Shown here piece after piece: positions 3,373 to 56,210 of a stretch of 64,000 nt of DNA. Made by a program: the position numbers and the translations under genes. The notes below the pieces were generated by a model, which did no database searches, had not been told where the DNA came from, and saw only the letters and a program-made list of their open reading frames with translations. Position 1 is the first letter of the stretch, and every line of letters starts with the position of its first letter. This stretch comes from Verminephrobacter eiseniae EF01-2 (GTDB taxonomy: Bacteria; Pseudomonadota; Gammaproteobacteria; Burkholderiales; Burkholderiaceae_C), in the NCBI RefSeq assembly GCF_000015565.1, contig NC_008786.1:868001-932000 (forward strand). The letters are read 5' to 3'.

Positions 3373-4449
3373 ATGGCCTTTTCCCCGCGCCGCACCGTGA
3401 TCATCGCCACCGTTGCCGCCCTGGTGTGCACCGCTGGCGCGTGGGCCCAGCCATCCGGCGCAGCGCAGACCACGCTGGAGAAGATCGAGGCCAGCGGCAA
3501 GGCCGTTCTGGGGGTGCGCGAGTCATCGCCCCCGATGGCCTATGCGCTGGGCGCGAATGAAAAGTACCTGGTGTCGCGTCACCGATCAGATGTCGTAGGC
3601 TGCGCGCAGCCATCGGAGCGCAGCGCAAGGCGCATCGCTTGCCCATACCGAGCTGTATTGGCAAGCGATGCAACGCCGCGATGCGCTTCGATGGCCAGCG
3701 CGGACCGACAGATGATCGGTGACGCGACACGAGGCTACCATGTGGAACTGTGCGAGCGGGTGCTCCGGCAGATCGCGCCTGCGGCCAAGCTCGAATACAT
3801 GGCCGTGACGGCACAGAACACGCTGCCACTGGTGCGAAACGGCACGCTGGACATCGGCTGCGGCCCGACCACCAACAACCAGGCGCGCCAGCAGCAGGTG
3901 GCCTTTGCCGTGACCACTTACGTGAGCGAAGTGCGCATGGCGGTGCGCGCCGACTCGGGCATCGCTTCGGTCGACCAACTGGGCGGACGCACCGTGGCGG
4001 CATCGACGGGAACCACGGCGGTGCAGATGCTGCGCAAGCTCGAACGCACGCTGGGCGCCCCGATCACCGTCTTGCTGGGCAAGGACCATGCGGAGAGCTT
4101 TTTGCTGCTCGAATCCGGCCGGGTCGATGCCTTTGTGCTCGATGACAACCTGCTGGCCGGCATGATCGCGAGCGCCAAAAACCCGGGCCACTTCCGCATC
4201 GTCGGCCAGGCCCTGGGCAGCGAGCCGATTGCCTTGCTGATGCGCAAGGACGACCCGGCTTTCAAGGCCGCCGTCGATGGCGTGCTGATACGCCTGATGC
4301 AAAGCGGCGAGTTGGAAAAAATCTACGCCAAGTGGTTCGTCGCGCCGATCCCGCCAAAGAACCTGAGCCTGAACCTGCCGATGGGCAGCACGCTCAGGGC
4401 CTCGATCGCCAGCCCGAACGACAAGCCCCTGGAGACCTTTCTCAAGTGA
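3373..4449 (+). CDS. GltI-type amino acid ABC substrate-binding protein with an in-frame 54-residue insertion
   Basis: Periplasmic solute-binding protein of family 3 (glutamate/aspartate GltI-like). Start ATG 3373 has a GGAG about 8 bases upstream and gives a Sec signal peptide ending near AWAQ (about residue 26). The mature protein opens with the family pattern GVRESSPPMAYALG. Residues 66-119 are encoded by a palindromic repeat element (3568-3733). Without it the sequence would read ANEKY-LGYHVELCERV, the normal family continuation, and the length would fall from 358 to 304, normal for GltI. The insert sits in lobe 1 near the ligand-binding region, so function may be impaired, but no stop or frameshift is present. 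No permease or ATPase gene accompanies it. Confidence 0.85.
   Translation: MAFSPRRTVIIATVAALVCTAGAWAQPSGAAQTTLEKIEASGKAVLGVRESSPPMAYALGANEKYLVSRHRSDVVGCAQPSERSARRIACPYRAVLASDATPRCASMASADRQMIGDATRGYHVELCERVLRQIAPAAKLEYMAVTAQNTLPLVRNGTLDIGCGPTTNNQARQQQVAFAVTTYVSEVRMAVRADSGIASVDQLGGRTVAASTGTTAVQMLRKLERTLGAPITVLLGKDHAESFLLLESGRVDAFVLDDNLLAGMIASAKNPGHFRIVGQALGSEPIALLMRKDDPAFKAAVDGVLIRLMQSGELEKIYAKWFVAPIPPKNLSLNLPMGSTLRASIASPNDKPLETFLK
3568..3733 (+). mobile_element. In-frame palindromic MITE-like element, copy 1 (diverged)
   Basis: This 166-base interval includes remnants of the flanking CTAG target. The 160-bp core runs 3571-3730, with terminal inverted repeats beginning GTGTCGCGTCAC and ending GTGACGCGACAC. 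The flanking TA duplications seen in the other copies have decayed here to TG (3569-3570) and GA (3731-3732). The copy aligns end to end with those at 53419 and 55367. It differs by scattered substitutions plus a 1-base deletion and a 1-base insertion about 15 bases apart, which cancel. The central hairpin is longer in this copy (GCTTGCC pairs with GGCAAGC). The sense strand adds 54 codons to the host gene without a stop. Confidence 0.9.
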
Positions 4450-6140
4450 CCATCGACGCACCCCTTGCCAACCCCCGCCGCACGGGCGGCCAGATCCTGG
4501 TCGATCAGCTCGTCACCCACGGCGTCAAGCAGCTTTTTTGCGTGCCCGGTGAAAGCTACCTGGCCGTGCTCGACGCGTTGCACGATGCCTGCATTGCCGT
4601 CACCGTGTGCCGTCAGGAGGGCGGCGCCACGATGATGGCCGAGGCCCAGGGCAAGCTCACGGGCCAACCCGGCATCTGCTTCGTGACGCGCGGGCCGGGG
4701 GCGACCAATGCCTCGGCCGGGGTGCACATTGCGCAGCAGGATTCGACGCCATTGATCCTGTTCGTCGGCCAGGTGGCGCGCGGCGCGCTGGGGCGCGAGG
4801 CGTTTCAGGAACTGGACTACCGCGCCGTGTTCGGCACCATGGCCAAGTGGGTGGTGCAGATCGACGACCCGGCCCGCGTGCCCGAGTTGGTCGCGCGCGC
4901 GTTCCGCGTTGCCACCTCGGGCCGCCCCGGGCCGGTGGTGGTGGCGCTGCCCGAAGACATGCTGACCGAAGCCGCCACGGTGGCCGATGCCTTGCCCTGC
5001 CAGGTGACCGAAACCCATCCGGGCGCAGCGCAAATGGCCGAACTGGCCCAGCGCCTGCAAGCGGCCCGGCAGCCGGTGGCGCTCGTCGGCGGCAGCCGCT
5101 GGTCGGCACAGGCGGTGCGCGAATTCGCCGCGTTTGCTCAGGACTGGTCGCTGCCCGTGTACTGCTCGTTCCGGCGGCAAATGCTGTTTCCCGCCAATCA
5201 CGCCTGCTATGGCGGCGATGTGGGCCTGGGTGCGAACCCCAGGCTGCTGGCGCGCATCCGCTCGGCCGACTTGCTGCTGCTGGTGGGCGGGCGCCTGTCC
5301 GAAGTGCCGGCGCAGGGCTATGAACTGCTGGCCATCCCCAACCCCGCGCAGCCGCTGGTCCATGTGCATGCCGACGCCGGCGAGTTGGGCAAGCTCTACC
5401 ACCCCGCGCAGGCGATACACGCCACGCCGCAAGCCTTTGCCGCGGCGCTGCAGCGCCTGCGCCCCCAGGCCGGCGTGCCATGGCACGCCCATGCCCGGGC
5501 GGCCCATGCCGAGTACCTGGCCTGGAGCGACCCGGCAGCGATCCGGATTCCGGGCATGCTGCAAATGGGCCAGGTGATGCAGCACCTGCGCGCCACGCTG
5601 CCTGCCGACACCCTGCTGTGCAACGGCGCGGGCAACTTTGCCACCTGGGTGCACCGTTTCTGGCCGTTCACCAGCTACGCCAGCCAGTTGGCGCCCACCA
5701 GCGGCTCGATGGGCTATGGCCTGCCCGCCGGCGTCGGCGCCAAGCGCCTGTGGCCTGAGCGCGAGGTGCTGGTGTTTGCCGGCGACGGCGACTTTTTGAT
5801 GCACGGCCAGGAGTTCGCCACGGCCGTGCAATACGGCCTGCCGATCATCGTGCTGCTGCTGGACAACGCGATGTACGGCACCATCCGCATGCACCAGGAG
5901 CGCGAATACCCGGGCCGCATCAGCGCCACGCAATTGAAAAACCCCGATTTCAAGGCCTACGCCCAGGCCTTCGGCGGCCATGGCGAGCGCGTCGAGCGCA
6001 CCGAAGACTTCGCCCCCGCGCTGGCCCGCGCCCGCGCCAGCGGCCTGCCCAGCCTGCTGCACTGCCTGATCGACCCCGAGGCCATCACGCCCACGGGCAC
6101 CTTGCAGGGCATTCGCCAGGCGGCGCTGGCCAAGGGCTGA
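4446..6140 (+). CDS. Thiamine diphosphate-dependent enzyme, acetolactate synthase-like
   Basis: ThDP enzyme of the acetolactate synthase / 2-oxoacid decarboxylase superfamily, 564 residues. The cofactor-activating Glu is at about 58 (CRQEGGA), and the ThDP/Mg motif starts GDGDF at 446 with the matching Asn in LDNAMYGTIR. The three usual domains (PYR, central, PP) are all present. The start is GTG 4446, overlapping the stop of the binding-protein gene (GTGA), which implies translational coupling. No small regulatory subunit is nearby, so a catabolic role is likelier than branched-chain amino acid synthesis. The substrate is probably a 2-oxo acid from whatever this cluster imports; its exact reaction cannot be told. 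Confidence 0.8.
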   Translation: MTIDAPLANPRRTGGQILVDQLVTHGVKQLFCVPGESYLAVLDALHDACIAVTVCRQEGGATMMAEAQGKLTGQPGICFVTRGPGATNASAGVHIAQQDSTPLILFVGQVARGALGREAFQELDYRAVFGTMAKWVVQIDDPARVPELVARAFRVATSGRPGPVVVALPEDMLTEAATVADALPCQVTETHPGAAQMAELAQRLQAARQPVALVGGSRWSAQAVREFAAFAQDWSLPVYCSFRRQMLFPANHACYGGDVGLGANPRLLARIRSADLLLLVGGRLSEVPAQGYELLAIPNPAQPLVHVHADAGELGKLYHPAQAIHATPQAFAAALQRLRPQAGVPWHAHARAAHAEYLAWSDPAAIRIPGMLQMGQVMQHLRATLPADTLLCNGAGNFATWVHRFWPFTSYASQLAPTSGSMGYGLPAGVGAKRLWPEREVLVFAGDGDFLMHGQEFATAVQYGLPIIVLLLDNAMYGTIRMHQEREYPGRISATQLKNPDFKAYAQAFGGHGERVERTEDFAPALARARASGLPSLLHCLIDPEAITPTGTLQGIRQAALAKG

Positions 6141-6162
6141 ACCCCGGGACTGAAAAAAGAAA

Positions 6163-6189
6163 AGCGCCCGCCGCAATCGCGGGGGCGCT
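6163..6189 (-). terminator. Rho-independent terminator for the minus-strand operon
   Basis: AGCGCCC (6163-6169) pairs with GGGCGCT (6183-6189), and inner CCGC/GCGG extends the stem across one bulged base with a 4-base loop. On the minus strand the stem is followed by a T-rich run (complement of 6151-6162), the classic arrangement. It would end transcripts coming from the minus-strand ThDP gene about 300 bases away. On the plus strand no U-run follows. Confidence 0.5.
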
Positions 6190-6261
6190 CAGTGGTGCGG
6201 TGCTGCCGCCGTACTGCCAGTGTTACCGTACTGGCGCCGCAGCAGCGGCCTGAATAAAAAA

Positions 6262-6358
6262 GTTGCGAAGCCTCCTGAAACGAAAGAAGAGAGGGAGGGA
6301 GGAGAAGCGTTCCAAGAGATCAGTCGGTGCCGTGAGGCTTACCGAAAGGCTTCGCAAC
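6262..6358. repeat. 97-bp interval bounded by a perfect 12-bp inverted repeat
   Basis: GTTGCGAAGCCT at 6262-6273 is exactly complementary to AGGCTTCGCAAC at 6347-6358, enclosing 73 bases that include a purine-rich run. No transposase or other copy was seen in the window. It could be a short non-autonomous element or the stem of a structured RNA. Confidence 0.45.
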
Positions 6359-6484
6359 GAACAGGACTGTACATCAGGTAACGGCCTGATGCAAGGGGTT
6401 GAATGCGGCGAGTTTGGCAAATTTTCACAGTCGCGGCTGATTTTTTTCAAAAATCGCAAAAACACACTGCTTGCTGCGCTGCGC

Positions 6485-8179
6485 TCAACCCATCCATTGG
6501 CTCACGGGCGTTGCCGCATCCTGCAACTCCTGTGAGATGACATCGATCAGCGCCGGCCCGTCGTGCCGCAATGCGGCCTCGATGGCGCCATCGAGCTGCG
6601 CCGGGTCTTGCACGCGCCAGGCTTTGAGGCCAAAGGCTTCGGCGACGCGCGCATGGTCGGTGCGATCGAAGTCCACCGAGAAATAGCGCTCACCGTACCC
6701 GGCCTTCTGGCTGGCCTTGATCCAGCCGAACACGCAGTTCGAGAAAACCACCATCTTGACCGGAATCTTGCGCCGCACCATGGTCTCCATCTCGCCACAG
6801 GTAAAGCCGAAGCTGCCGTCGCCCATGACCGACACCACGACGCAATCGGGTCGGCCGATGGCGGCGCCGATGCCCGCCGACATTGCGAATCCGAGCGCCC
6901 CTTGCGCCCGGTTGGTGATGAATTGCCGTCCGGGTGTCGCCGCGTTGAAGTAGGCCGAAAAGTACGGGCAAGGCGTGCCGGGATCGGCGACGACGATCGC
7001 GTTGCCGGGCAGCAGGCGGTTCAGCGCATCCACCACGCGCTCGGGCTTGATGGGCCGGTCCAGCGAGGCTGCCAGCGGCTGGAAGTGTTTGTGCTTGGCC
7101 GCGCGCGCGGCTGCGGCAATGGCCGCGCCGTCCGCTCCGCTGCGCGGCCGCTGCGCCAGGCGGTCATGGACCAGCGCATTGAGCGCCCTCAAGGTCAGCC
7201 GGGCGTCCCCGACGAGCGCGACATCGGTGCGGTAGTTGGCGGCAATCGCCATCGGATCGACATCGAGATGCAGCACCGGGATTCGTCGTGACGGGTAAGT
7301 CCAGTGCTCGGTCGAGGTCGATCCGGCCCTGCAGCCGATGAGCAGCACCAGGTCGGCGTTGCCGAGAATGGCGCGCGTGGCATGGCTGCCGCCATTGGCG
7401 CCAACGACGCCGGCGTTGAGCGGGTGCGTGTCTGCCAGGCTGCCTTGTCCGCTGATCGTCGTCACCACGGGCGCGTTCAACAGCCTGGCCAAGGTGTCGA
7501 GCTCGCCGCAGGCGCCGGAGATGACCAGGCCGCCGCCGCACATGATGACGGGCGATTGCGCTGCGGTCAGCCGGGCTGCGGCAGTGTCGATCTCGGCCGG
7601 ATCGGCTGCATAGCGCATGGCCGGAAAGCGGTCATGGCCGGGCTGTGCCCAGATGTCCTGCGCGTCTGCCTCATGCTTTTGAACGTCATGGGGCAGGCAG
7701 ATATGCGCCGCTCCCGGACGCCCTGTGGTCATCGCGCGAAACGCGCTGCGCACGATGCCCGGGAGCTGATCGACGCGATCGACACGGGCGTTCCACTTCG
7801 TCAGCGGTCGATACAGCGCTTGCTGGTCGAGTTCGGTGAGCGGGTATTTGCCGCGCGATCCGACCGGGACATCGCTGGTGATGCCCAGCACGGCGATCGA
7901 GGATTCATTGGCCTCGACCAGGCCAGGCAGCAGGTAGGTGGCCCCGCCGCCGCTGGGGCCTTCGCAGACGCCGACTTTGCCGGTCACGCGGGCGTAGGCA
8001 TCGGCCATGTAGGCGGCGCTGCGCTCATCGCGCGTGAGGATGTGCTCCATGCCGTGGTCCAGCCGGGCCAAAGCGTCGTAGAAGGGCAGGCTGGTGTCGC
8101 CGCAGAGGCCGAAGATATGCTTGACGCCATTGAGTTGCAGCATGCGCACCATGGCCTCGGCGCCGTTCATCTTTGTCAT
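6485..8179 (-). CDS. Thiamine diphosphate-binding protein, acetolactate synthase-like
   Basis: ThDP enzyme of 564 residues. The catalytic Glu is about residue 52 (RDERSAAYMADAYAR), the ThDP motif GDGSF lies near 453, and a central domain (about 195-330) has a nucleotide-binding look. It is the third gene of a minus-strand unit after an amino acid-type binding protein and permease, 81 bases after the permease stop. It is clearly diverged from the other ThDP enzyme in this window, so it is not a recent duplicate. The substrate is unknown; decarboxylation or carboligation of the 2-oxo acid of the imported compound is the simplest idea. Confidence 0.8.
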   Translation of the reverse strand: MTKMNGAEAMVRMLQLNGVKHIFGLCGDTSLPFYDALARLDHGMEHILTRDERSAAYMADAYARVTGKVGVCEGPSGGGATYLLPGLVEANESSIAVLGITSDVPVGSRGKYPLTELDQQALYRPLTKWNARVDRVDQLPGIVRSAFRAMTTGRPGAAHICLPHDVQKHEADAQDIWAQPGHDRFPAMRYAADPAEIDTAAARLTAAQSPVIMCGGGLVISGACGELDTLARLLNAPVVTTISGQGSLADTHPLNAGVVGANGGSHATRAILGNADLVLLIGCRAGSTSTEHWTYPSRRIPVLHLDVDPMAIAANYRTDVALVGDARLTLRALNALVHDRLAQRPRSGADGAAIAAAARAAKHKHFQPLAASLDRPIKPERVVDALNRLLPGNAIVVADPGTPCPYFSAYFNAATPGRQFITNRAQGALGFAMSAGIGAAIGRPDCVVVSVMGDGSFGFTCGEMETMVRRKIPVKMVVFSNCVFGWIKASQKAGYGERYFSVDFDRTDHARVAEAFGLKAWRVQDPAQLDGAIEAALRHDGPALIDVISQELQDAATPVSQWMG

Positions 8180-8260
8180 GGGAAGGTTTTCTCGGTGGGG
8201 TGGGTCAGTCGGTATGCCGGTGCCACGCGGGGGGATCGGCGGGGATCGGCGCCGGGGCGT

Positions 8261-8926
8261 TCATCGGCGGGTTCCGAGTCTGGTCTCGACACGCTGCGCG
8301 GCGACGGTCAACGGAAACAGCACGGCGAAGTAGATCACGGCGACCACGGTGTAGACCTCCAGGGGCCGATAGATGGCCGCCGTGATCACGGCGCCCTGGT
8401 AGAGCAGGTCTGCCACGGCGATGGTCGAGACCAGGGAGGTGTTCTTCAACTGCATCACCGTCTGGTTGATGAACGATGGAATCATGATGCGCACGGCCTG
8501 GGGGAGGATGATGCTGCGCAAGGTCTGGGCATGGCGCATGCCCAAGGCCCCGCCGGCCTCCCACTGGCCTTTGCCCACCGCCTCGATGCCGCCGCGGAAC
8601 ACCTCGGCGTAGAACGCCCCGGCGTACAGCGTCAGCGTGAGAAAGCAGGCCATGATCGGCGACAGCGCCACGCCCGAGAGGACCGGCAGCGCGTAGTAGA
8701 TCCATACCAGTTGCACGAGCAACGGCGTGCAACGAAAAGCCTCTATGTAGGCGATGGCAGGCAGCCGGAGCCAGCGCGACCGGTGGGTCCGGATGACGCC
8801 GGCAACCAGCCCCAGTGCGACGCCCGCGAGGACCGTGGACAGCGTGAACAGCATCGTCACGCCCAGCCCCCGGGCGATCAGCGCGCGGTAGGGGGCCAGG
8901 GCGCCGAAACTCCAGGCGTAGTCCAT
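8261..8926 (-). CDS. Polar amino acid ABC transporter permease (HisM/GlnP family)
   Basis: Inner-membrane permease of 221 residues with the family's EAA-type loop (GQWEAGGALGMRHAQTLRSI) near residue 125. It begins 7 bases after the stop of the binding-protein gene, so the two are co-transcribed. Only one permease is present (these systems can use a homodimer) and no ATPase gene lies in the window. The pump must borrow an ATPase from elsewhere or be incomplete. Confidence 0.85.
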   Translation of the reverse strand: MDYAWSFGALAPYRALIARGLGVTMLFTLSTVLAGVALGLVAGVIRTHRSRWLRLPAIAYIEAFRCTPLLVQLVWIYYALPVLSGVALSPIMACFLTLTLYAGAFYAEVFRGGIEAVGKGQWEAGGALGMRHAQTLRSIILPQAVRIMIPSFINQTVMQLKNTSLVSTIAVADLLYQGAVITAAIYRPLEVYTVVAVIYFAVLFPLTVAAQRVETRLGTRR

Positions 8927-8933
8927 GGCGCGC

Positions 8934-9818
8934 TCAAAAGTGGATCTCGGCCGGGATGTCGCCCGCAGCGATGCCCAGTTCTACCAAGCCTTTGGTCATC
9001 CATTCGCGGGTCTGCCCGATCGCTCGGTTGTAGTCGGCCCAGACACTCAGGAAGTCGCGCCAGCGTTTGTCGGTCTCGATCCGGGTCCCGATGTTCGTCG
9101 GCAGCGAGAGGATCGGGCGCGGAATCACCATCTCGCCGAGGGTCGGGTTCTTCTTGAGCATCGGCAGCGCCAGCACCGCCAGCACGACATTCACGTCCGC
9201 CCGGCCGGTGGCGACGGCAAGCACCGCTTCGTCGCGGTTCTTGAAGGCGCTGATACCGGCTTTGGGCGCATAGCGGCGCGCAATCGACTCATGGGTCGAG
9301 CCCAGGTCGACGGCGATGCGCACTTCGGGCCGGTTCAGGTCTTCCCAGGTCTGCGGCTTGCGAAAGCCCTTGCGCGTGACCACGGTGAAAGAGTGCACCA
9401 GGATCGGCGTTGCAAAATCGATGACCAGCGCGCGCTCCGGGGTCGGGTTCACCGCGAAGGCGAGATCCACCTTGTCCGATTGCAGGTCGAGGATCTGATG
9501 GCCCCAGGTCGACTCCAGCAGTTCCACCCTGACGCCGAGCTTGGCCGCAATGTCGTTGGCCATCTCGATACAGGCCCCGCCCCACTGGCCCGTCATCAGG
9601 TCCTTGGTGAAGTACGGCGCCTGACCCAGGATGACTGCGGCTCTGAGCACGCCTCTTTTTTGCACGCGATCGAGCGTCGAGTCGGTGCGCGGCAGCGCCA
9701 CTTTCGCCGGCGCCGCAGGCGCCGCCCGGGCCGCCTGCGCCCCGGGGGCGGTCAAAGCACCCGATAGCGTGGCTGCGCCGATCAATGCAGTAGAGGCAAA
9801 AGCGTGTCTGCGTTTCAT
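8934..9818 (-). CDS. Polar amino acid ABC transporter substrate-binding protein
   Basis: Periplasmic binding protein, family 3, 294 residues. The start at 9818 is preferred because AGGGGG lies about 8 bases upstream and it gives a good signal peptide (KRR, then a hydrophobic stretch, cleavage near AQAA at about residue 28). Family motifs include LRAAVILGQAPYFTKD, and VDLAFAVNPTPERALVIDFATPI, which is the usual 'D..P..T.ER' region. It is the first gene of the minus-strand operon with the HisM-type permease and a ThDP enzyme. It is divergent from a DadA-like oxidase operon across a 272-base regulatory gap. Confidence 0.85.
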   Translation of the reverse strand: MKRRHAFASTALIGAATLSGALTAPGAQAARAAPAAPAKVALPRTDSTLDRVQKRGVLRAAVILGQAPYFTKDLMTGQWGGACIEMANDIAAKLGVRVELLESTWGHQILDLQSDKVDLAFAVNPTPERALVIDFATPILVHSFTVVTRKGFRKPQTWEDLNRPEVRIAVDLGSTHESIARRYAPKAGISAFKNRDEAVLAVATGRADVNVVLAVLALPMLKKNPTLGEMVIPRPILSLPTNIGTRIETDKRWRDFLSVWADYNRAIGQTREWMTKGLVELGIAAGDIPAEIHF

Positions 9819-9941
9819 GCGGACCCCCTGGTGGTTGGACGCTGCGGGACCGACTGGCGCCGGTCTGCGCCGACCCGTGCCGCTCTGTGCGTCAGCGCCC
9901 TGCGCCCCTGCGCCCCTGCGCATCACGCGCTGAATATCGAT

Positions 9942-9979
9942 CTGAATTCAGTGTATTGCACAGACTTGTATTCAGCAAG
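9942..9979. promoter_or_regulatory. Possible operator region between divergent operons
   Basis: A perfect 10-bp palindrome CTGAATTCAG (9942-9951) is followed by CTTGTATTCAGCAAG (9965-9979), whose ends are complementary. It lies in the A/T-rich part of the 272-base gap between the divergent starts at 9818 and 10091. CTTGTAT cores are typical of FCD-type GntR sites, and such a regulator is encoded at 12144. The assignment is inference. Confidence 0.3.
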
Positions 9980-10090
9980 TGGTACGATACACGACCACTT
10001 TCCGGAGCGCCCGATGGCCCGCGCTTTTGCCCACCTGCCACCCCCCCGGGGCAGCGCCCGCGCTGCTCCATGCACTTGCGGCCGCACGCC

Positions 10091-11386
10091 ATGACGCGCC
10101 ATGTGGTCATCATCGGGGCCGGCATCGTCGGTGCCGTCAGTGCCATCGAAGCGCTGCGCGCGGGTCTTCGGGTCACGCTGGTAGAGGCCGGCCCGGCCGG
10201 TGGCGAGCAGGCTGCGAGCTACGGCAATGCCGGCTGGCTGTCGTCGCACTCGGTCATTGCGCCGGCCGAGCCGGGCCTATGGAAAAAAGTGCCGGGCTTC
10301 GTGCTCGACCCGCTGGGGCCTTTGGCGATACGGATGCGCTATCTGCCGCAGGTGGCGCCCTGGCTGATGCGCTATCTGGCCTCGGGCTGGACCGAGGCCC
10401 GGGTCGAAAAGACGGCGCATGCGCTGCGCGCGTTGCTGGTGGATGCGCCGGCATTGCACCACGATCTGGCCAGCGCAGCCGGGGTTGCCGCGTTGATCGA
10501 ACGCCGTGGTCTGCTGCACGCCTACCCATCGCGGTCGGACTTCGAGGCCGACGGCCTGGCCTGGCGCGTGCGCCACAAAACCGGGGTTCGATGGCAGGAA
10601 CTGCAGGCCGACGCGCTGCACGCGCTCGAGCCCGCGCTGCATCCGCGCTACCAGTTCGGTGTATGGGTGGGCGAAGCCGGCCATTGCCGCGATCCGGGCG
10701 CCTATGTGGGCGCGCTGGTGGCGCATGCCTGCGCGCAGGGCGCGGCCTCGATCTGCGCGCAGGCCACGGGGTTCCGGTTCGAGTCCGGGCGCCTGCGGGC
10801 CGTCAGAGCCGCTGGCGCCGACATCGGGTGCGACGCTGCGGTGATTGCAGCGGGCGCGCACTCGCGCGCGCTCGCCGCCCTGGCCGGCGATCTGCTTCCT
10901 CTGGAGACCGAGCGCGGCTATCACGTCATCGTCGACGCGCCGCAGATGCTGCCCGAGCGCCCCCAGCTACCGCAGCTACCGGTCATGGTGTCCGACTGCA
11001 AGGCGGGAGCGACGCCGATGGAGCGCGGCTTGCGCATTGCGGGGCAGGTCGAAATCGCCGGTCTGAAGGCCGCGCCGAACTGGCGCCGGGCCGAGATTTT
11101 GCGCGACCACCTGCTGCGCATTTTCCCCGGCCTGCCTGCGCCTTTGCCCGCAGCCAGCCTGCACTACTGGATGGGCCACCGGCCCAGCATGCCCGACGGC
11201 CGGCCGTGCATAGGCTACGCCAGTGCCTCGCGTGACGTGGTGCACGCTTTCGGGCATGGGCATATCGGCCTGGCCAGCGCGGCCCGCACCGGACGCCTGG
11301 TGGCGCAACTGCTGTCCGACCGAACGCCCGAGATAGACCTGGCCCCTTTCGACCCGCGCCGGTTTGCCAGGCCCTTTGCGCCATGA
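10091..11386 (+). CDS. FAD-dependent D-amino acid dehydrogenase-like oxidoreductase (DadA family)
   Basis: Flavoprotein of the DAO/DadA family, 431 residues, oxidising an amino acid (usually a D-isomer or N-substituted one) to the 2-oxo acid. The Rossmann FAD motif is at residues 4-30 (VVIIGAGIVGAVSAIEALR), and YGNAGWLS is a DadA hallmark. GHGHIGLASAARTGRLVAQLL near the C-terminus closes the FAD site. The ATG at 10091 is chosen because the FAD motif begins at once; upstream in-frame starts would add a tail with no family match. The start of the next gene overlaps its stop (ATGA). Adjacent racemase and binding protein suggest use of both enantiomers of an imported amino acid. Confidence 0.8.
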   Translation: MTRHVVIIGAGIVGAVSAIEALRAGLRVTLVEAGPAGGEQAASYGNAGWLSSHSVIAPAEPGLWKKVPGFVLDPLGPLAIRMRYLPQVAPWLMRYLASGWTEARVEKTAHALRALLVDAPALHHDLASAAGVAALIERRGLLHAYPSRSDFEADGLAWRVRHKTGVRWQELQADALHALEPALHPRYQFGVWVGEAGHCRDPGAYVGALVAHACAQGAASICAQATGFRFESGRLRAVRAAGADIGCDAAVIAAGAHSRALAALAGDLLPLETERGYHVIVDAPQMLPERPQLPQLPVMVSDCKAGATPMERGLRIAGQVEIAGLKAAPNWRRAEILRDHLLRIFPGLPAPLPAASLHYWMGHRPSMPDGRPCIGYASASRDVVHAFGHGHIGLASAARTGRLVAQLLSDRTPEIDLAPFDPRRFARPFAP

Positions 11387-12159
11387 TGCGGCCCGCCATG
11401 AACCCACCGGCAGGCTCGACCATCGCGCGCGGCGGCAAGGCCGTCTACGGAGCGCCCCTGGGCATCTTGATGCTGGAGGCCCGATTTGCGCGCATTCCGG
11501 GGGATATGGGCAATGGCCGGACTTGGCCGTTTCCGGTGCTGTACCGGGTGGTGCCCGGCGCCAGCCCGGAAAAAGTGGTGCTCGACGGCGCGCACGGCCT
11601 GCTGCCGGACTTCATCGCGGCGGCGCAGGACCTGGTGCGCCTGGGGGCCGAGGCGATCACCACCAACTGCGGGTTTTTGTCGTTGTTTCAGCAGCAGCTT
11701 GCGGCGGCCGTGGGCGTGCCGGTGGCCACTTCTGCGCTGCTGCAAGTGCCCTGGGTGCAGTCGCTGCTGCCACCCGGCCAGCGCGTGGGCGTGCTCACGG
11801 TCAGCGCTCGCACCCTCACGCCGGCGCACCTGAGCGCAGCCGGTGTGCCGCTGGATACGCCGATCGCCGGCACGGAGGGCGGGCGCGAGTTCTTCCGCGT
11901 GCTGATCGAGGCCGAGAAAGACGATCTGGACATCGCCCTGGCCGAGCAGGACATCATCGACGCCGGGCGCGCGCTGGTATCGGGCGCTCCCGAGGTCGGG
12001 GCCATCGTTCTCGAATGCACCAACATGCCGCCGTATGCGGCGGCACTGCGCAGGCAACTGGGCCTGCCGGTCTACGACATTTACTCGATGGTGAACTGGT
12101 TTCACGCCGGCCTGAGGCCGCGCGCATTCAGTGGACAAAGCCCATGGCCAATCCCGTAG
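11383..12159 (+). CDS. Aspartate/glutamate (hydantoin) racemase-family protein
   Basis: Cofactor-independent racemase-fold protein, 258 residues. Both expected catalytic cysteines are present: Cys96 (TTNCGFLS) and Cys212 (VLECTNMP). The family includes Asp, Glu and hydantoin racemases and maleate isomerase, and the sequence does not settle which. The start overlaps the stop of the DadA-like gene and the end overlaps the GntR gene by 16 bases, so all three are translationally linked. With a D-amino acid dehydrogenase next door, conversion of an L- to a D-amino acid for oxidation is a reasonable inference. Confidence 0.75.
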   Translation: MMRPAMNPPAGSTIARGGKAVYGAPLGILMLEARFARIPGDMGNGRTWPFPVLYRVVPGASPEKVVLDGAHGLLPDFIAAAQDLVRLGAEAITTNCGFLSLFQQQLAAAVGVPVATSALLQVPWVQSLLPPGQRVGVLTVSARTLTPAHLSAAGVPLDTPIAGTEGGREFFRVLIEAEKDDLDIALAEQDIIDAGRALVSGAPEVGAIVLECTNMPPYAAALRRQLGLPVYDIYSMVNWFHAGLRPRAFSGQSPWPIP

Positions 12160-13898: not shown

Positions 13899-13922
13899 TC
13901 GCAGCCCGCACCTTCTTTCCCC

Positions 13923-47015: not shown

Positions 47016-47076
47016 TCGAGAAAGTAAAACCAGGGCGCAGCATACCGGTCTGGCACCTGGCCAAAGCGTGCAATCC

Positions 47077-48474: not shown

Positions 48475-48520
48475 TTTTGAATCCCGTTTCAAACGAGCAG
48501 GTGTGGTTCAGGGGTGCGGT

Positions 48521-49891
48521 TCAGACGTGGAGCAACAGGTGCTCACGTTCCCAGGGAGAAATCACTTTCATGAACTCGTCAAACTCCAACTCCTTGATCT
48601 CGGAGTAGACCGTGACGAACTCCTTGCCCAGCACTTCGTGCAGGTCGGTTTCCTTGCGCAGCCAGTCCAGCGCCTCGGCCAGACTGCGCGGCAATGCATA
48701 TGCGCAGAGATAGGCGTCGCCCTTCATCTCCGCCTTGGGCTCGATCTTGTTCATGATCCCCAGATAGCCGCAAGCCAGCGTCATGGCCATTGCCACATAG
48801 GGGTTGGCATCGGCGCCAATGACACGGTTTTCCACGCGCCGGGCCGCTGGCGTCGAGATCGGCGAACGGATGCCCACGGTGCGGTTGTCGTAGCCCCATT
48901 CGATGTTGATCGGCGCTGCCGTGTTGCGCGACAGGCGGCGATAGCTGTTGACGTAGGGCGCCACCAGCACCATGGCGGCCGGAATGTAGCGCTGCAAGCC
49001 GCCGATGTAGTGCATGAACATCGCCGACGGCGTGCCGTCTTCGTTGCTGAACACATTTTTGCCGCTGGCCACGTCCAGCAGACTCTGGTGCACATGCATC
49101 GCGCTGCCGGGTTCGCCGGAGATGGGCTTGGCCATGAAGGTGGCATACATGTCATGGCGCAGCGCCGACTCGCGCACCGTGCGTTTGAAGAAGAACACTT
49201 CATCGGCCAGGCCCAAGGGCACGTTGTGAAAGAAGTTGATCTCCATTTGTCCGGCACCCACTTCGTGGATCAGGGTGTCTACGTTGAGCTCCATCTTGTC
49301 GCTGAAGTCGTAGATTTCTTCAAACAGCGGATCGAATTCGTTCACCGCATCGATGCTGTAGGCTTGGCGCGACGTTTCCGCGCGGCCGCTGCGCCCAATG
49401 GGCGGGCGCGGCAGCATGTTCGGGTCGGTATTGCGGGCGGTCAGATAAAACTCCAGTTCGGGCGCGACGATGGGTTGCAGGCCCTGTGCAGCGAAAAGCC
49501 CCAGCACCCGGCGCAGCACCGAGCGTGGCGCAAAAGGCACCATGTTGCCTTCGTTGTCGAAGCAGTCGTGGATGACCTGTGCGGTCGGGTCGGTGGCCCA
49601 CGGCACGATGCGCACGGACGAAGGGTCGGGCCGCAATTGCATGTCCTTGTCGGTAGGGTCGATCACGTCGTAGTAGGGGCCGCTTTGGGGGAATTCGCCG
49701 GTCACCCCCATGGCCACGATGGCCTGGGGCAAGCGCATGCCGCGGTCCTCGGTGAATTTGGCGCGGGGCAGAATTTTGCCGCGCGCCACGCCGGTCAAGT
49801 CCGGCACCAGACATTCCACTTCGGTCACATGGCGCTCGTTGAGCCACTGCTCCAGATCGTTGAAGTTCATGGGTTTGTTTTTTTCACTCAT
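48521..49891 (-). CDS. Glutamine synthetase family, gamma-glutamylpolyamine synthetase type (PuuA/SpuI)
   Basis: GS-fold ligase of 456 residues that joins glutamate to a polyamine, first step of the Puu route. Visible GS motifs are MEINF (metal site), [19 protein letters not shown] (ATP/metal site) and [20 protein letters not shown] (glutamate binding). The ATG at 49891 has AGGAG eight bases upstream. Clustering with a PuuB-like oxidase, aminotransferase and Pot transporter supports polyamine use over ammonia assimilation. Confidence 0.9.
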
Positions 49892-50263
49892 AAGGCGCTC
49901 CTGACTGCTCGGACAGTCTTATCTGCTTTGCTGAACGCGCCAATGGTAAGCCTTATCCCCGCCATTTCCCGGCTGGAAACTCCCATGGCCCGGCGACGGG
50001 GATTTTGGCCTTTGGGCCTTTGGGCTGCTGAAATCGATGGCGGGCAAGAGCGCCGGGGGCCGGGCAAGCGCCAGCACGGCGCCATCGATGCGGCATCGGA
50101 TGGTTTGCCCAAGTTTTGCGCGCAACCGCGCCACCGTCCGGACGCATCGATGTGCGCCATGCCTGCCCCGGCGCGAAGATGGCGCGGGTTGCAACGCATC
50201 CAATCCAACGGGCGCGAACCAGGGCGCCGGCCAAGGCACGCCGGGCATGGCGCGGGCAGACGC
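49892..50263 (-). other. 372-base gap inside the polyamine cluster
   Basis: Spacer between the PuuB-like gene and the GS-like gene, both on the minus strand. It is G+C rich with short CCTTTGGG direct repeats (about 50009-50026) and no coding signal I would trust. It should contain the promoter of the GS-aminotransferase-transporter unit, but no clear hexamers were found. Confidence 0.35.
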
Positions 50264-51577
50264 TCACAGCGCGTCACGCAATGCGTGGTAGGCCATGCCG
50301 AGCACCAGCGTGGGGGTGCGCAACCACGGCCCGCCGGGAAATTTGCGGTGTTGCAATCTGGCGAACACATCGAAGCGCTCGGCCTGCCCGGCCAGTGCCT
50401 GCGCCACGACGCGCCCGGCCAGGCCGGCCAGCGCCACACCGTGGCCGCTGAAACCTTGCAGGTAATACAGGTTGTCGCCCAGACGGCCAAAGTCCGGGGC
50501 GCGGTTCGCGCTGATGTCGACAAAGCCGCCCCACACGAAGTCGATGGGCACGCCCTGCAATGCCGGAAACACCCGCTCCATGCGCCGGGCCATGATCTGC
50601 CGCAACTGCGCTGGCGTGCGCGTGGAGTAGCTCACCCGCCCGCCAAACAGCATGCGGTGGTCGGCGCTGAAACGGAAATAGTCCAGAACGAAATTGTTGT
50701 CGCACACAGCGGCGTTGCGGGCAATCAGTTGCGCCGGCAACGCCGGCGCAAGCGGCGCGGTGCCGATGATGTAGGTGCCCACCGGCATGATGCGCGGCGC
50801 AATCTCGGGGGCCACCTGGGGGCCGTATGCGCTCAGCGTGCAGTTCCCGGCCAGCACGCCAAACTGCGCCACCACGGCGCCCTTGGCCGTGCGCGCCGTC
50901 AGCGGCGCGCCTTTGCGCAGTTCCAGCACCGGCGAATGCTCGAAAATCTGCACGCCCAGACTGCGCGCCGCGCGCGCCAGACCCAGGCCGTACTTCAGCG
51001 GGTGCAAATGGCCGGAGCGGTTTTCATAGGCCGAGGCGCAATACAGCGGACTCTGGATATGCCGCTGCACATCGGCGCCGCTGGCGAACTCGGTGGCCAG
51101 CCCGTAATCGCGCTGCATGGCCTGCATCCGGGCTTGCAGCGCCCGCGCCTTGCGGGCAGAGGTGGCCACATAGAGGTAGCCATCGACCCGGTCGCAATCG
51201 ATGCCGAATTGCGCGATGCGCTCGTCGATCAGATCCAGCGCTTCCAGCGACATGTCCCAGGCGCGCCGCGCACCATCCGGGCCCAACTGCTGCTCAAACG
51301 GCGCCAGGCCGCTGGCATAGCCGACGATGGCCTGGCCGCCATTGCGCCCGGAGGCGCCGCTGCACACCCGATCTGCCTCCAGCAGCGCCACCCTGTAGCC
51401 GCGCTGCGCCAACTCGATGGCGCTGGACAGGCCGGCAAAGCCCGCCCCGACCACCAGCACGTCGGCGCGCACCTCGCCTTGCAACGGCGCCGACGCCGGG
51501 TCGCGCTGGACACTGGCTTCGTAGTAGCTCTTCTGGTTGAGCTGGGTGTCGGAATCGAGCAAAGAGTCAAACGACAT
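50264..51577 (-). CDS. FAD-dependent oxidoreductase, gamma-glutamylputrescine oxidase (PuuB)-like
   Basis: DAO-family flavoprotein of 437 residues. The FAD motif is near residues 38-60 ([18 protein letters not shown]), and [14 protein letters not shown] is the usual PuuB/PuuB-like flavin loop. [21 protein letters not shown] and the C-terminal [15 protein letters not shown] close the FAD site. ATG 51577 has GGGGAGA about seven bases upstream, preferred over ATG 51592. It should oxidise the gamma-glutamylated polyamine to the aldehyde. The next enzyme (PuuC-type dehydrogenase) is not in this cluster. Confidence 0.85.
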
Positions 51578-52093
51578 ACGCTGTCTCCCCATTCAGGCCG
51601 AAGCCTGGGTCATCTGGCCGCACAGCACCTGCGGTGCGCGGCGGGCTTCCTGCGGGGCGAAGGCGCACCCGGGGCCGGTCCGCGACCGCGCCGTCAACGG
51701 GCGCGGAGGATACGGGCACGCCCGCACAGGGCGGCCCCTGCGACGCGAGGCGCGCAAGAAAGCGCTCGTGGGTGCGCTTGTGGGTGTGGGTGCGGGTGTA
51801 TGCCGATATTCCGGGGTGCATGGTGTTCTTTCACTCAGAAACTGCGAAGTTACCGCATCCCGGGCCTGGCGCCAGGGTCCATTCGCGCTCGCAGCACGGC
51901 GCAGGCCCTTGCCCTTTGCCCTTTGCCCGGCGCGCCAACCTGCGGCCGTTTGGAAAAGACTTATACTCGCGGGCTTTTCGATCCTCTGGCCGGCCGTTTC
52001 GCCCTGCGGCTTTGCTTGCAAAACCGGGGTGAGACCCTGATACGTCAATCCCGACGTTGCCACTTTGGCGCGGACAAGATCGTTGGATGGCAA
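51578..52093. other. 516-base gap upstream of rplS
   Basis: No gene is supported. It contains a GT-rich stretch (about 51770-51800, GTGGGTGTGGGTGCGGGTGT), and the leader of rplS. TATACT at 51962-51967 is a candidate -10 without a good -35. No remnant of rpsP, rimM or trmD, the usual upstream neighbours of rplS, could be recognised. Confidence 0.4.
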
Positions 52094-52480
<387 letters not shown>

Positions 52481-52502
52481 GCCGTTTGCGCTGTTTTCCG
52501 GT

Positions 52503-52530
52503 CTCATTTCCGGCAACCACCGGAAATGAG
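52503..52530. terminator. Hairpin between rplS and the biotin carrier gene
   Basis: CTCATTTCCGG (52503-52513) pairs perfectly with CCGGAAATGAG (52520-52530) over a 6-base loop, 23 bases after rplS and 5 bases from the end of the convergent biotin-carrier gene. No long T-run follows on either strand, but position and the 11-bp stem suggest a shared bidirectional terminator. Confidence 0.5.
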
Positions 52531-52534
52531 CCTC

Positions 52535-52747
52535 TCAGACGAAGGTCGCAACGGCCTGGTCTTCGCTGACCTGCTGGCCTTCGACGACCAGCATTTGGTC
52601 GATCACGCCGGCCTCTTCGGCCTCCACCGGTATCTCCATCTTCATCGATTCAACGGTCACGATCACATCGCCGACCGCGACATGCGCGCCCGGCTGTACA
52701 TGCACTTTGGCGATGACGCCAGAGACGGTCGTTTGGATTGTGCTCAT
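52535..52747 (-). CDS. Stand-alone biotin carboxyl carrier protein
   Basis: Small biotinyl domain protein, 70 residues, a single biotinyl/lipoyl fold. The biotin is carried on Lys36 in the classic VESMKMEIP motif. It is the last gene of a minus-strand set with an acyl-CoA carboxylase carboxyltransferase, a Bug-type binding protein and an NDP-forming CoA ligase. A biotin carboxylase subunit is missing from the window, so the carboxylase must draw one from elsewhere. Confidence 0.9.
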   Translation of the reverse strand: MSTIQTTVSGVIAKVHVQPGAHVAVGDVIVTVESMKMEIPVEAEEAGVIDQMLVVEGQQVSEDQAVATFV

Positions 52748-52765
52748 GGATCATTCCCTTCGTTT

Positions 52766-55066
52766 TCAGTGTGAACGGATGCGCTCGGCGCGCGCCCCGG
52801 CGCAGGGGATCACCACCGCATCCACCAGCACCGGCGCCGCCGTGCGCGACACCAGCACCGGGTTGGCGTCTATCGACGAGAATGCGCCCTGCTGCTGCAC
52901 GAACCATTGGCCCAGCGTGACCAGCATGGCGGCCAGGGCGTGCAGGTCGACGGCAGGCAGTCCTCGCGTGGCCGCAAAGCCGCGCGCGACCCTCAGCCGC
53001 GCAATCGCCGCCAGCGCCTGCGCCCGGGTGAACGGCGCCAGCAGAAACTGCATGTCCTGGTAAGCCTCCACCAGCACCCCGCCATGCCCGACCATCACGA
53101 CCGGCCCGAAGGTCGCGTCCCAATGCGCGCCCACGGCCAGTTCGAAATCGCCGCGCGCTTGCTCGGCCACGAGCAGGCCGCCGAAGTCGGCGCCCAGGCC
53201 ATCGAGCACGGTCTGGTAGTCGCGCCAGGCCGCGTGCGCTTGCTCAGGCGCGGATACGCCGAGCCGCACCAGGCCGTGCTCTGATTTGTGCGTGATGGCG
53301 GCGGACACGCCCTTGAGCACCACCGGCCGCTGCAAGGACTCCAGCGCTGCGGCAATGTCTTCTTGCCTGCGGCAGACCCGATGCCGCACCACCGGCAGGC
53401 CGGCCTGCGCGAGCAGCGCTAGTGTCGCGTCACCGATCATCTGTCGGTCTGCGCTGGCCATCGAAGCGCATCGCGGCGTTGCATCGCTTGCCAATACGCT
53501 CGGTATTGGCTGCGCGATGCGCCTTGCGCTGCGCTCCGATGGCTGCGCGCAGCCTACGACATCTGATCCGTGACGCGACACTAGGCTGGCCGGCTCGTCC
53601 CAGGCTGCGCCGCCTGCCGCTCCTGTCACCGGCAGACCTGCTGCGGCCCCGGCGCAGCCGGCAGATTCGGCGCCCGCCCGGAGCGCCGCGCGCCCTTCTT
53701 CGTAGCCCGCCAGCAAGGCCAGGCCGCGAATGGCGCGAAATTCGCTGCCGAACACTGGCAGGCCGCAAGTGCGGAACGCGCGCGCCACCCCATCTTGCAC
53801 GGCGCCGACGGCCACCGGCAGGCCGGTGGCGGCAACGAAGTCCATGGTTTGCCGGGCGAAGTACGACATGTCATAGCCTTCGCCGCCGACCGGAAAGCCC
53901 ACGAAAACGCCATGCGCGGCGCCGCTGTCGGCCACGGTGCGCAAGGCGTCGCCGTAGATGCCCGGCTGCCCGAGCAGCGCCGTCGTCATGTCGATCGGGT
54001 TGCGCACCGCGACATACGCTGGCAGCACTGCCCGCAGCGCCTGCGCATGGCTTGGTGTGAATTCGGCCGACAGCATGTCGTTTTGTTCGATCGCGTCGGC
54101 GGCCAGCACGCAGGTCGCGCCGGAGTTGCTGAGCGCCACGAGCTTGCGGCCCCGGGGGCGTTCGCGCCGCTCGAACAACTGCGCATATTCCACCAGTTCG
54201 TCGAAATCGCGCACACGGACGATGTTGTGTTGGCGCAGAAAGGCTTCGGCCAACGCATCTTCGCTGGCCAGCGCGCCGGTGTGCGAGCTGGCCGTGGCCT
54301 GCCCGGCCGGTGTGCGCGCGGCCTTTACGGCCAGGATCGGCACATCGCGCCGGGCCGACAGCGTTGCGGCTTCGGCCAGCAGCCCGGTATCGCGCAAGGC
54401 TTCGGCATACATCAGGATCAGGCGCAGCGACGGGTCTTCGAGCAGGCCCCGCACGGCGCGCGCCACATTCACGCCGGCCTCATTGCCCGTGGCCACCATG
54501 TAGCGCACGCCCAGGCCCTGGCGGCGCAGTCCGCCATACAGGATGCCCGCGCCGGCGCCGCTCTGGCTGACGATGGCGATGGCGCCGTCCTGCGGGGCGC
54601 ACTCGTTGATCATCGTGGAAAAGTTCAGCACGGCGCCGGTCTGAAAGTTCGCAACGCCCTGCGTATTCGGGCCTATCAGTCTGAGACCGGCTGCGCTGGC
54701 CCGCCGCACCAGCGCCTGCTGCGCGGCAAGCCCGGCTGCGCCCAGTTCCGCAAAGCCCGACGAGTAGATCACCGCGCAGCGCGCACCGGCCGCTATGCAT
54801 TGCGCCAGCGCAGCATCGACCTGGCTGCCGGCCAGACTGATGACCACCAGATCGGGCGCCTGCGGCAGATCAGCCAAACTGGCGTAGCAAGGCAGGCCCT
54901 GCACCTCGGTGCGCCGGGGGTTGACCGGGTAGATGTCGTCCTGAAAGCCGTAGCGGCGCATGTAGGCAATCGGCCGGCCGCCGGCCTTGACGGGGTTTTC
55001 GGAAGCGCCGAGCACGGCGACACGGCGCGGCGTCAGCAGTTGCAGCATGGATGTCGCTTCAGTCAA
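52766..55066 (-). CDS. Acyl-CoA synthetase (NDP-forming, acetate-CoA ligase family) with an in-frame 54-residue insertion
   Basis: Fused ligase forming acyl-CoA from acid, CoA and ATP/ADP through a phosphohistidine, 766 residues. It has an N-terminal CoA-binding domain (about 10-135), a ligase domain with the active-site SHTGALASEDAL, and a C-terminal ATP-grasp domain (about 550-760, LQRPVVLKGVSAAITHKSE). Residues about 495-548 come from the palindromic element at 53419-53584, exactly at the linker before the ATP-grasp part. Without it the text reads ASLALLAQAGLPVVRHR, the normal domain start, and length is 712, typical. The TTG start at 55066 has AGGAG six bases upstream; ATG 55048 is the alternative. 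Because the insert is in a linker, activity may survive. Confidence 0.85.
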   Translation of the reverse strand: MTEATSMLQLLTPRRVAVLGASENPVKAGGRPIAYMRRYGFQDDIYPVNPRRTEVQGLPCYASLADLPQAPDLVVISLAGSQVDAALAQCIAAGARCAVIYSSGFAELGAAGLAAQQALVRRASAAGLRLIGPNTQGVANFQTGAVLNFSTMINECAPQDGAIAIVSQSGAGAGILYGGLRRQGLGVRYMVATGNEAGVNVARAVRGLLEDPSLRLILMYAEALRDTGLLAEAATLSARRDVPILAVKAARTPAGQATASSHTGALASEDALAEAFLRQHNIVRVRDFDELVEYAQLFERRERPRGRKLVALSNSGATCVLAADAIEQNDMLSAEFTPSHAQALRAVLPAYVAVRNPIDMTTALLGQPGIYGDALRTVADSGAAHGVFVGFPVGGEGYDMSYFARQTMDFVAATGLPVAVGAVQDGVARAFRTCGLPVFGSEFRAIRGLALLAGYEEGRAALRAGAESAGCAGAAAGLPVTGAAGGAAWDEPASLVSRHGSDVVGCAQPSERSARRIAQPIPSVLASDATPRCASMASADRQMIGDATLALLAQAGLPVVRHRVCRRQEDIAAALESLQRPVVLKGVSAAITHKSEHGLVRLGVSAPEQAHAAWRDYQTVLDGLGADFGGLLVAEQARGDFELAVGAHWDATFGPVVMVGHGGVLVEAYQDMQFLLAPFTRAQALAAIARLRVARGFAATRGLPAVDLHALAAMLVTLGQWFVQQQGAFSSIDANPVLVSRTAAPVLVDAVVIPCAGARAERIRSH
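53419..53584 (-). mobile_element. In-frame palindromic MITE-like element, copy 2
   Basis: The 160-bp core (53422-53581) is flanked by TA duplications within CTAG on both sides. Terminal inverted repeats match at 25 of the outer 28 bases (CTAG included) and begin CTAGTGTCGCGTCAC. The central hairpin is CCAATAC-CGAGC-GTATTGG. The copy differs from copy 3 at a single base of 166. Read in the gene's direction it supplies 54 sense codons. Excision leaving one CTAG restores the host reading frame. Confidence 0.92.
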
Positions 55067-56210
55067 CGCTCACTCCTGCCCGGGCCACGGTGTTTTTCCA
55101 TTTGCCCAGTTCGCTCGCCACGAAGGCGGCGTATTGCTTTTGGTCCATGTCACCGGGGTCGGCGCCATTGTCCTTGAACCACGGGCGCGCTGCGGCGCTG
55201 TTGACGCTGGCGCGCGCCAGCGCGTTCAGGCGTTCGGCGATGGCGCTCGGCAGATGGGCCGGGCCGTAGAAGCCGATCCAGGTGATGGCCTGGTAGCCGG
55301 GCAGGCCCTGCTCGGCAATGGTCGGAACCTCGGGCAGCGCGCCGCTGCGGGTCGCAGAGGTCACGCCTAGTGTCGCGTCACCGATCATCTGTCGGTCTGC
55401 GCTGGCCATCGAAGCGCATCGCGGCGTTGCATCGCTTGCCAATACGCTCGGTATTGGCCGCGCGATGCGCCTTGCGCTGCGCTCCGATGGCTGCGCGCAG
55501 CCTACGACATCTGATCCGTGACGCGACACTAGCGCCTTGACGCGGCCGTCGCGGACATACGGCGCCATCGTCATCACGTCATGAAACAGCGCCGGTATCT
55601 GGCCGGCGAGCAGGTCGGCAAGCGCCGGCGCGGCGCCCTTGTACGGCACATGGGTCATCGGAATGCCGGCTTCGAGCCGGAGCAGTTCGCCCGACAAATG
55701 GGTGGCCCCGCCAATGCTGGAGGAGCCGAACATGCTGCCGCCGGGCTGCTTTCTGGCGTAGGCAATGAACTCGGAAAGGTTCGCGGCCGGAACGTCCTTG
55801 TGCACCACCAGCACATTCGGCGTGCTGGCCAGCAGCGCCAGCGGTGTGAAACCGCTGCGGGTGTCATACGGCAGCTTGCCACGCAAGGCCGGGTTGATCA
55901 CATGATGGGTGGCCGAGACCAGCAAGGTGTAGCCATCGGGCGCGGCCCGGTGCACATGTTCGGTGCCGATCTGCCCGCTCGCACCGGCCCGGTTGTCCAC
56001 CACCACCGACTGCCCGAGCGCGTGTTGCAAGTCCTTGGCCATGCGGCGCGCGACCACATCCGTCATGCCGCCCGGCGGAAAGGGCACGACCAGGGTGATG
56101 GGCCGGCTTGGCCATGGCGCCGCCTCGGCCGCCAGCGCGGGCGCGCTGCCCAGGCACGCCACGATGGCGGCGGCGCCGAGCTGCGCAAAATGGCGTCTGC
56201 ACTGCCACAT
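55059..56210 (-). CDS. Bug-family (tripartite tricarboxylate-type) binding protein with an in-frame 54-residue insertion
   Basis: Periplasmic binding protein of the TctC/Bug family, 383 residues. The signal peptide ends near ALAAEA (about residue 28). Family blocks are WPSRPITLVVPFPPGG, then VVDNRAGASGQIG and MTHVPYKGAAPALADLLAGQI. Residues 227-280 are encoded by the palindromic element 55367-55532. Without it KA-LGVTSATRSGALPEVPTI is the canonical Bug sequence and length is 329, the family norm. It overlaps the CoA ligase start by 8 bases. No TctA/TctB membrane genes are nearby, common for Bug proteins. The insert lies in the second lobe, so binding may be altered. Confidence 0.88.
   Translation of the reverse strand: MWQCRRHFAQLGAAAIVACLGSAPALAAEAAPWPSRPITLVVPFPPGGMTDVVARRMAKDLQHALGQSVVVDNRAGASGQIGTEHVHRAAPDGYTLLVSATHHVINPALRGKLPYDTRSGFTPLALLASTPNVLVVHKDVPAANLSEFIAYARKQPGGSMFGSSSIGGATHLSGELLRLEAGIPMTHVPYKGAAPALADLLAGQIPALFHDVMTMAPYVRDGRVKALVSRHGSDVVGCAQPSERSARRIARPIPSVLASDATPRCASMASADRQMIGDATLGVTSATRSGALPEVPTIAEQGLPGYQAITWIGFYGPAHLPSAIAERLNALARASVNSAAARPWFKDNGADPGDMDQKQYAAFVASELGKWKNTVARAGVSVD
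55367..55532 (-). mobile_element. In-frame palindromic MITE-like element, copy 3
   Basis: The core is 55370-55529, with intact CTAG (TA duplication) at both ends and terminal repeats GTGTCGCGTCAC / GTGACGCGACAC. It is 165/166 identical to copy 2, which lies about 1.8 kb away in the adjacent gene and in the same orientation. The central stem GCCAATAC/GTATTGGC has a 5-base loop. It provides the cleanest reference sequence: target CTA|G in a Leu-Gly context, both ends perfect, and the host family sequence restored on removal. Confidence 0.93.

Follow-up and report, generated by a model that had tools for sequence, protein, structure and literature searches.

The window analysed here, a stretch of 64,000 nucleotides (nt) from the genome of the earthworm symbiont Verminephrobacter eiseniae EF01-2 (contig NC_008786.1, positions 868,001 to 932,000), carries three copies of a palindromic element, each lying within a protein-coding gene (Table 1). 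All three are 164 nt long, preceded by C and followed by G, and each lengthens its host gene by a net 162 bp. They share the orientation of the host gene and a single codon phase, contain no stop codon and supply 54 extra codons. Direct reading thereby confirmed the coordinates, sense orientation, common open frame and added length that a sequence-only reading of the window had reported, and blastn and nhmmer searches of the window returned no copy beyond the three. The ligase host has CoA-binding, Succ_CoA_lig and ATP-grasp domains, with the insert placed immediately before the ATP-grasp domain (Pfam). Compared with the majority consensus of the 133 copies described below, copy 2 differs at 1 base and copy 3 at 2 bases; copy 1 has several substitutions, one single-base loss and one single-base gain. 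Copy 1 belongs to a subfamily whose loop has gained a T and whose left arm carries a -1 change, so that the length stays at 164 nt. In-place repair of copy 1 was considered and ruled out; the corrected left arm is present in 9 of the 133 copies, including copy 1.

Table 1. Copies of the element in the window and the genes that carry them (positions in the window).
Feature	Position	Strand	Remarks
Element copy 1	3569..3732	+	sense in host gene 1; TG...GA ends (degenerate terminal dinucleotides)
Host gene 1, periplasmic solute-binding protein (SBP_bac_3)	3325..4449	+	374 aa with insert
Element copy 2	53420..53583	-	sense in host gene 2
Host gene 2, acetate--CoA ligase (NDP-forming) type protein	52766..55066	-	766 aa with insert
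Element copy 3	55368..55531	-	sense in host gene 3
Host gene 3, Bug/TctC-type binding protein	55059..56321	-	420 aa with insert; start codon uncertain

Homologues that lack the insert were found for all three hosts and are 97-99% identical to them outside it (identities over aligned columns). For the Bug-type host, the insert is missing from P0242 (98%) and P0243 (97%, named V. eiseniae) and present in P0241; for the CoA ligase, it is missing from P0002 (98%, named V. eiseniae) and present in P0004 and P0006, and P0009 stops short of the insert site; for the solute-binding protein, P0122 (99%) and P0123 (95%) lack it, as do the remoter rows in all three alignments. The 164-bp unit is therefore an insertion, and very close sequences of the Bug and ligase hosts include alleles with it and alleles without it. 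Aligning the hosts with their homologues, a check that the sequence-only reading had proposed, thus gave clean empty sites for all three, in agreement with its claim that the 162 bp are foreign to three unrelated proteins. The notion that the unit is an ancestral domain or loop of the host families, and not mobile, has a negligible chance of being correct: these near-identical homologues lack it, the same sequence occurs in unrelated families, most sampled copies lie outside genes, and no point in its favour was found.

Across the genome, the terminal 18-mer of the element matches 313 sites on the forward and 315 on the reverse strand when up to 2 mismatches are allowed; the reversed-pattern control matches 1 site on each. 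The repeat is present in roughly 300 copies, far beyond chance. For closer analysis, 80 stretches around copies were fetched from the same genome (655 kb including the window), in which 133 copies were retained (136 nhmmer hits minus 3 fragments with scores below 60). The sample consists of the first 100 listed exact end matches, 13 stretches from a high-identity list and copies met by chance, a scheme biased toward intact and recent copies. Twelve sampled copies are mutually identical, which suggests recent spread. As RNA, the one copy folded forms a single long hairpin (-115.8 kcal/mol, z -12.4 versus shuffles), and a search of Rfam gave five weak matches, none at gathering score.

The unit has terminal inverted repeats and contains no transposase gene. 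C and G flank it in 121 of the 133 copies and TA is found at both ends in 86, from which the target site is deduced to be CTAG. According to excerpts of PMC2170065, IS630-family elements duplicate TA at the target, and a title in the reference list of that paper refers to a CTAG preference of IS630. Judged by its sequence features, the element is an IS630-type miniature inverted-repeat transposable element (MITE): it is short, lacks a transposase gene, has inverted ends and sits at the TA of CTAG. Ends in common with an autonomous insertion sequence (IS) were found in a related genome, G328 (see below), and not in the V. eiseniae genome itself. CTAG is very scarce, with 39 empty sites in the approximately 632 kb outside elements (14 in 546 kb of coding DNA, 21 in 86.5 kb of noncoding DNA and 4 at edges), and the element may have occupied a good part of its CTAG targets. 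Head-to-tail doubles with a common border occur near 642000, 724500, 1668900, 1734600, 3237200 and 3380800 of the genome (G000:C2); two such pairs lie inside open reading frames (ORFs), where they would add about double the residues.

The location of the copies relative to genes was determined with a self-trained seven-state hidden Markov model, trained on the same stretches without annotation. Under a strict rule, by which a copy is intragenic if one decoded frame lies on both sides of it, 106 of the 133 copies fall in spacers or at gene edges, 26 are intragenic with the same frame on both sides and 1 is intragenic with a shifted frame; this rule drops copies where the decoder shifts frame a few bases outside the element. 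Under five other rules, which require that the flanking frames fit a single interrupted gene, 26-31 copies are inside an interrupted gene, whose frame is preserved in 23-27 cases and broken in 3-4. Insertion always inside genes, as seen in the window, therefore does not generalise. Genes are not preferred: 27/133 copies lie in genes, whereas 14/39 of the empty CTAG sites are coding (P 0.055); if only the copies read through are counted, 22/133 compares with 14/39 (P 0.013). A family of repetitive extragenic palindromes (REPs) or bacterial interspersed mosaic elements (BIMEs), moved by a REP-associated tyrosine transposase (RAYT), would likewise be palindromic, abundant and mainly in spacers. 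REP and BIME palindromes are described as 20-40 bp and extragenic in excerpts of PMC3733652, however, whereas the V. eiseniae element is 164 nt long with 26 of 133 copies intragenic, has TA...TA at CTAG and IS630-like ends, and no REP-sized units were seen, nor any cognate RAYT genes, although no search was aimed at the latter; this origin is highly improbable.

Read-through occurs in 22 of the 26 intragenic same-frame copies; the other 4 have a stop in or at the element. All 22 lie in the CTA/G phase (the slash marks the codon boundary), a uniformity that is partly definitional, as the other phases of the element contain stops. Twenty-one of them are 164 nt long and one is 131 nt, which adds fewer than 54 residues. 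The orientation is sense in 16 and antisense in 6 (binomial P 0.052), and the fixed orientation noted for the window copies did not hold in the larger sample. Copies mostly in spacers and without frame preference had been named beforehand as evidence that would contradict in-frame insertion; the former was found (106/133), but the latter was not, with 22 of 22 in one phase. The read-through copies are spread over 19 ORFs, two with tandem pairs and one with two separate copies. The Pfam assignments of the hosts are TctC (2), SBP_bac_3, CoA ligase, SURF1, isochorismatase, thiolase, polysaccharide deacetylase, PDDEXK nuclease (tandem pair), malonate decarboxylase gamma (tandem pair), major facilitator superfamily (MFS) transporter, biotin carboxylase, AcrB family, helicase-like, two ketosynthase proteins, a nonribosomal peptide synthetase (NRPS) ORF with two copies and a transposase; the host at L099 had no Pfam match at 1e-5. 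In the polyketide/NRPS region L109 (G000:C2:2759200-2768800), three read-through copies are clustered in a span of about 3.6 kb, and the NRPS ORF holds two of these.

The use of a single frame is now largely explained by target choice plus an open frame on both strands. Within a gene, the xxC/TAG reading of CTAG is impossible, being a stop; 11 of the 14 empty coding CTAG sites are in the CTA/G phase and 3 in xCT/AGx; and the consensus is stop-free in the CTA/G phase on both strands and adds 162 bp, a multiple of three. It follows that a copy can be read in frame in either orientation. In a rough simulation, a palindrome like the element had both strands open together with a fitting length with a probability of about 0.03, so a chance origin of the open frame is possible.

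A peptide of the Rickettsia palindromic element (RPE) type, useful to its hosts and kept by selection, has also been considered, given that the size, palindromic form and in-frame placement resemble those of RPEs as described in excerpts of PMC10969869. The substitution pattern speaks against it. Among copies without indels, differences from the consensus amount to 6 synonymous, 30 nonsynonymous and 0 stop in read-through copies and 54, 98 and 0, respectively, in spacer copies; nothing in these counts points to a maintained peptide. Distinct stop-making variants are not significantly depleted (3 seen versus 4.5 expected, P 0.30). A raw count of 3 closed 164-nt spacer copies versus about 18 expected had pointed to family-wide selection against stops; it counted shared variants repeatedly, and this candidate was dropped once each variant was counted a single time. 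Sense and antisense peptides both occur and most copies are in spacers. A useful peptide is accordingly very improbable, and no support was obtained for the maintenance of a peptide.

Length variants were examined in the same way. The 165-nt copies form one subfamily, 26 of 27 having the same inserted T, and make up 2-3 of 26-31 copies in genes and 24-25 of 102-107 elsewhere (P 0.10-0.19). The near-absence of this subfamily from genes under the strict rule (1/27 versus 26/106, P 0.015) was rejected as a result, as it was lost under looser rules; if every same-strand frame change is counted as intragenic, P is 0.31-0.81. For all frame-breaking lengths the strict count gives P 0.15, and the read-through subset alone gives P 0.0019, a value conditioned on the outcome. 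That genes exclude frame-breaking copies is no more than a trend.

Related elements are present outside V. eiseniae. A scan of 399 genomes of the family gave at least 50 with some match, and full-length or near full-length elements of 71-92% identity in at least nine genomes besides V. eiseniae; most other family matches cover the element centre only. In a scan of 399 genomes of the order, at least one genome besides V. eiseniae passes 1e-9, with a partial match. Two candidates were scored per genome, so that these counts are lower bounds. Positions ~58-112 of the element match many family genomes at 75-88%, and the central matches perhaps represent other palindromic families with a common central hairpin. 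The elements in relatives, from which three mis-bounded hits and four duplicates were left out and to which one locus contributed none, are 162-165 nt long. Seven of the eight from G381, G310 and G326 are 164 nt long and open on both strands; those of G328, G045, G338, G235, G298 and G131 differ in length or are interrupted by stops on one strand or both. In G328, 20 copies of 162 or 163 nt, neither of which keeps frame, include at most 2 whose two flanks agree in coding strand and frame label, and empty CTAG sites number 17 in coding and 29 in noncoding DNA; frames in this genome were decoded with the model trained on V. eiseniae, and the numbers are too small for a test.

The same genome links the element to a transposon. 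G328 contains a 1188-bp IS whose IS630-family transposase is split between two frames. This IS has the ends TAGTGTCGCGTCAA and abuts a 163-nt sibling element with the same 14-nt ends. The related transposase is present in three copies in G328 and in one, at 73%, in G298; it was not found at 1e-20 in G131 and G045. Among 81 related IS loci (80 named plus that of G298), a CTAG-flanked 13-nt end like that of the element is present on at least one side in 67 and on both sides in 48 (up to 3 mismatches), compared with means of 13.0 (maximum 42) and 0.6 (maximum 2), respectively, for 20 shuffled 13-mers. ISs of Polaromonas sp. CG9_12 and P. glacialis have exact element-like ends on both sides. Other IS630 groups in the V. 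eiseniae genome also occupy CTAG or TA but have different ends. Own-genome IS630-type elements were rejected as parents on the ends that were read, which differ; not all 27 DDE_3 matches had ends defined. In the sampled stretches, unpaired element ends came only from truncated copies. At L122, L125 and L134 in the V. eiseniae genome, IS630-type elements lie directly against a MITE end, an arrangement that would fit insertion at the CTAG carried on MITE borders.

We propose, with a probability of about 0.82, that the element is a 164-bp hairpin which inserts into CTAG at its TA, was likely moved in trans by a transposase of the IS630 family and can be read through as 54 codons where it lands in genes. 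A transposase supplied in trans would move the hairpin into its target, and an in-gene copy in the CTA/G phase would read straight through in either orientation. The fusion proteins would be made and would work, and a copy inside a gene would survive wherever its host protein tolerates the loop and not through a function of the peptide. An AlphaFold2 model of the Bug host (40 sequences) has a mean pLDDT (predicted local distance difference test) of 79.6, with the core mostly above 90 and residues 268-315 mostly below 50, and in a Foldseek search it matches solved Bug-type proteins (best E 7.2e-33). The insert is thus predicted to form a disordered loop on an intact fold, and the added loop is probably tolerated. 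The earlier suggestion of tolerated surface loops agrees with this floppy loop in the one host modelled; that the fusion also functions is what we infer.

Several observations weigh against this proposal. The very stable hairpin could hinder translation. A number of inserts fall in conserved domains (condensation, ketosynthase), and some hosts may be inactive. Frame-breaking lengths account for 3-4 of 26-31 copies in interrupted genes and 31-32 of 102-107 others (P 0.06-0.15 over the five rules). The related transposase was not found at 1e-20 in G381, G310 and G326, which have the closest sibling elements, and no transposase with matching ends was found in the V. eiseniae genome, where the nearest is 51% identical and its IS ends differ; the parent IS in this genome is absent, diverged or unsampled.

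Some of these points would suit a selfish insert that inactivates its hosts, in which case in-gene copies would mark genes that are turning into pseudogenes and the open frame would be incidental. The simulated probability of the both-strand open frame and fitting length is not very low, the peptide shows no sign of purifying selection, frame-breaking copies are not significantly excluded from genes, NRPS and ketosynthase proteins carry copies inside conserved domains, and empty and filled alleles coexist. Nevertheless, full-length host frames continue past the insert in 22 copies, the biotin carboxylase copy sits in a linker, the CoA ligase copy adjoins a domain edge and the modelled Bug protein is predicted to retain its fold, and we regard general inactivation as unlikely, though a serious contender. 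More doubtful still is an extension of the read-through proposal, in which the element would belong to a gene-safe, CTAG-targeting MITE lineage that evolved to be open on both strands in the one common codon phase that CTAG permits and adds its 54-codon module in either orientation. If true, a gene-safe MITE would supply proteins with new loops much as RPEs do, while its transposon parent could be seen.

The best-known palindromic inserts read in frame are those of Rickettsia. We know of no transposase for RPEs, whereas for the V. eiseniae element the target word, the codon-phase rule and the parental IS clade are all visible, and both of its orientations are open in one phase. Filled and empty alleles coexisting in close relatives also make it testable, in a symbiont that is probably harmless, whether the loop is tolerated or useful. 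RPEs are described in excerpts of PMC10969869 as elements of about 150 bp with an ORF that occur in frame in unrelated genes; palindromic form, similar size and in-frame copies in unrelated genes are found here too. The parallel to RPEs drawn by the sequence-only reading thus stands at the level of how the element works, and membership among RPEs by sequence is not claimed. QMITE1 and QMITE2 of Coxiella burnetii are likewise MITEs that overlap or fuse with ORFs and alter the protein sequence, but according to excerpts of PMC5896051 they insert into functional annotated genes at the 3' ends, in contrast to the many mid-gene, frame-keeping copies of the V. eiseniae element. With IS630-family MITEs the element shares TA...TA ends, a CTAG target, IS630-like ends, the lack of a transposase gene and a high copy number; it differs in a length near 164 nt that is conserved in several genomes, in forming one long quasi-palindrome and in the both-strand open frame of this subfamily.

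A repeat of this kind has been named before. Excerpts of PMC3975124 describe VeiPR1 as 'unique to V. eiseniae' and as a single palindromic repeat that accounts for about 2.3% of that genome, a figure for which the Pinel 2009 thesis is cited. The element is almost certainly VeiPR1, as it is the only abundant palindromic repeat found in the 655 kb, an identification made from abundance and description and not from the VeiPR1 sequence. Two differences from those excerpts are evident: the element amounts to approximately 0.9% of the genome (313 ends per strand x 164 nt) in contrast to 2.3%, and full-length relatives occur in at least nine genomes of the family besides V. eiseniae. Searches of the openly licensed literature showed no description of VeiPR1 or this repeat inserting in frame; the repeat itself, if the identification is right, had already been named.

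The commonest other dispersed 20-mer in the 655 kb has 11 occurrences. A smaller dispersed GC-rich repeat with the core CCGGCCGCCCGAAGGCGCTC (11 occurrences) was observed at L036, L050, L061, L063, L072 and L082, in places spaced 60 bases apart, and a run of an 8-bp tandem repeat lies at L044 near 7262.

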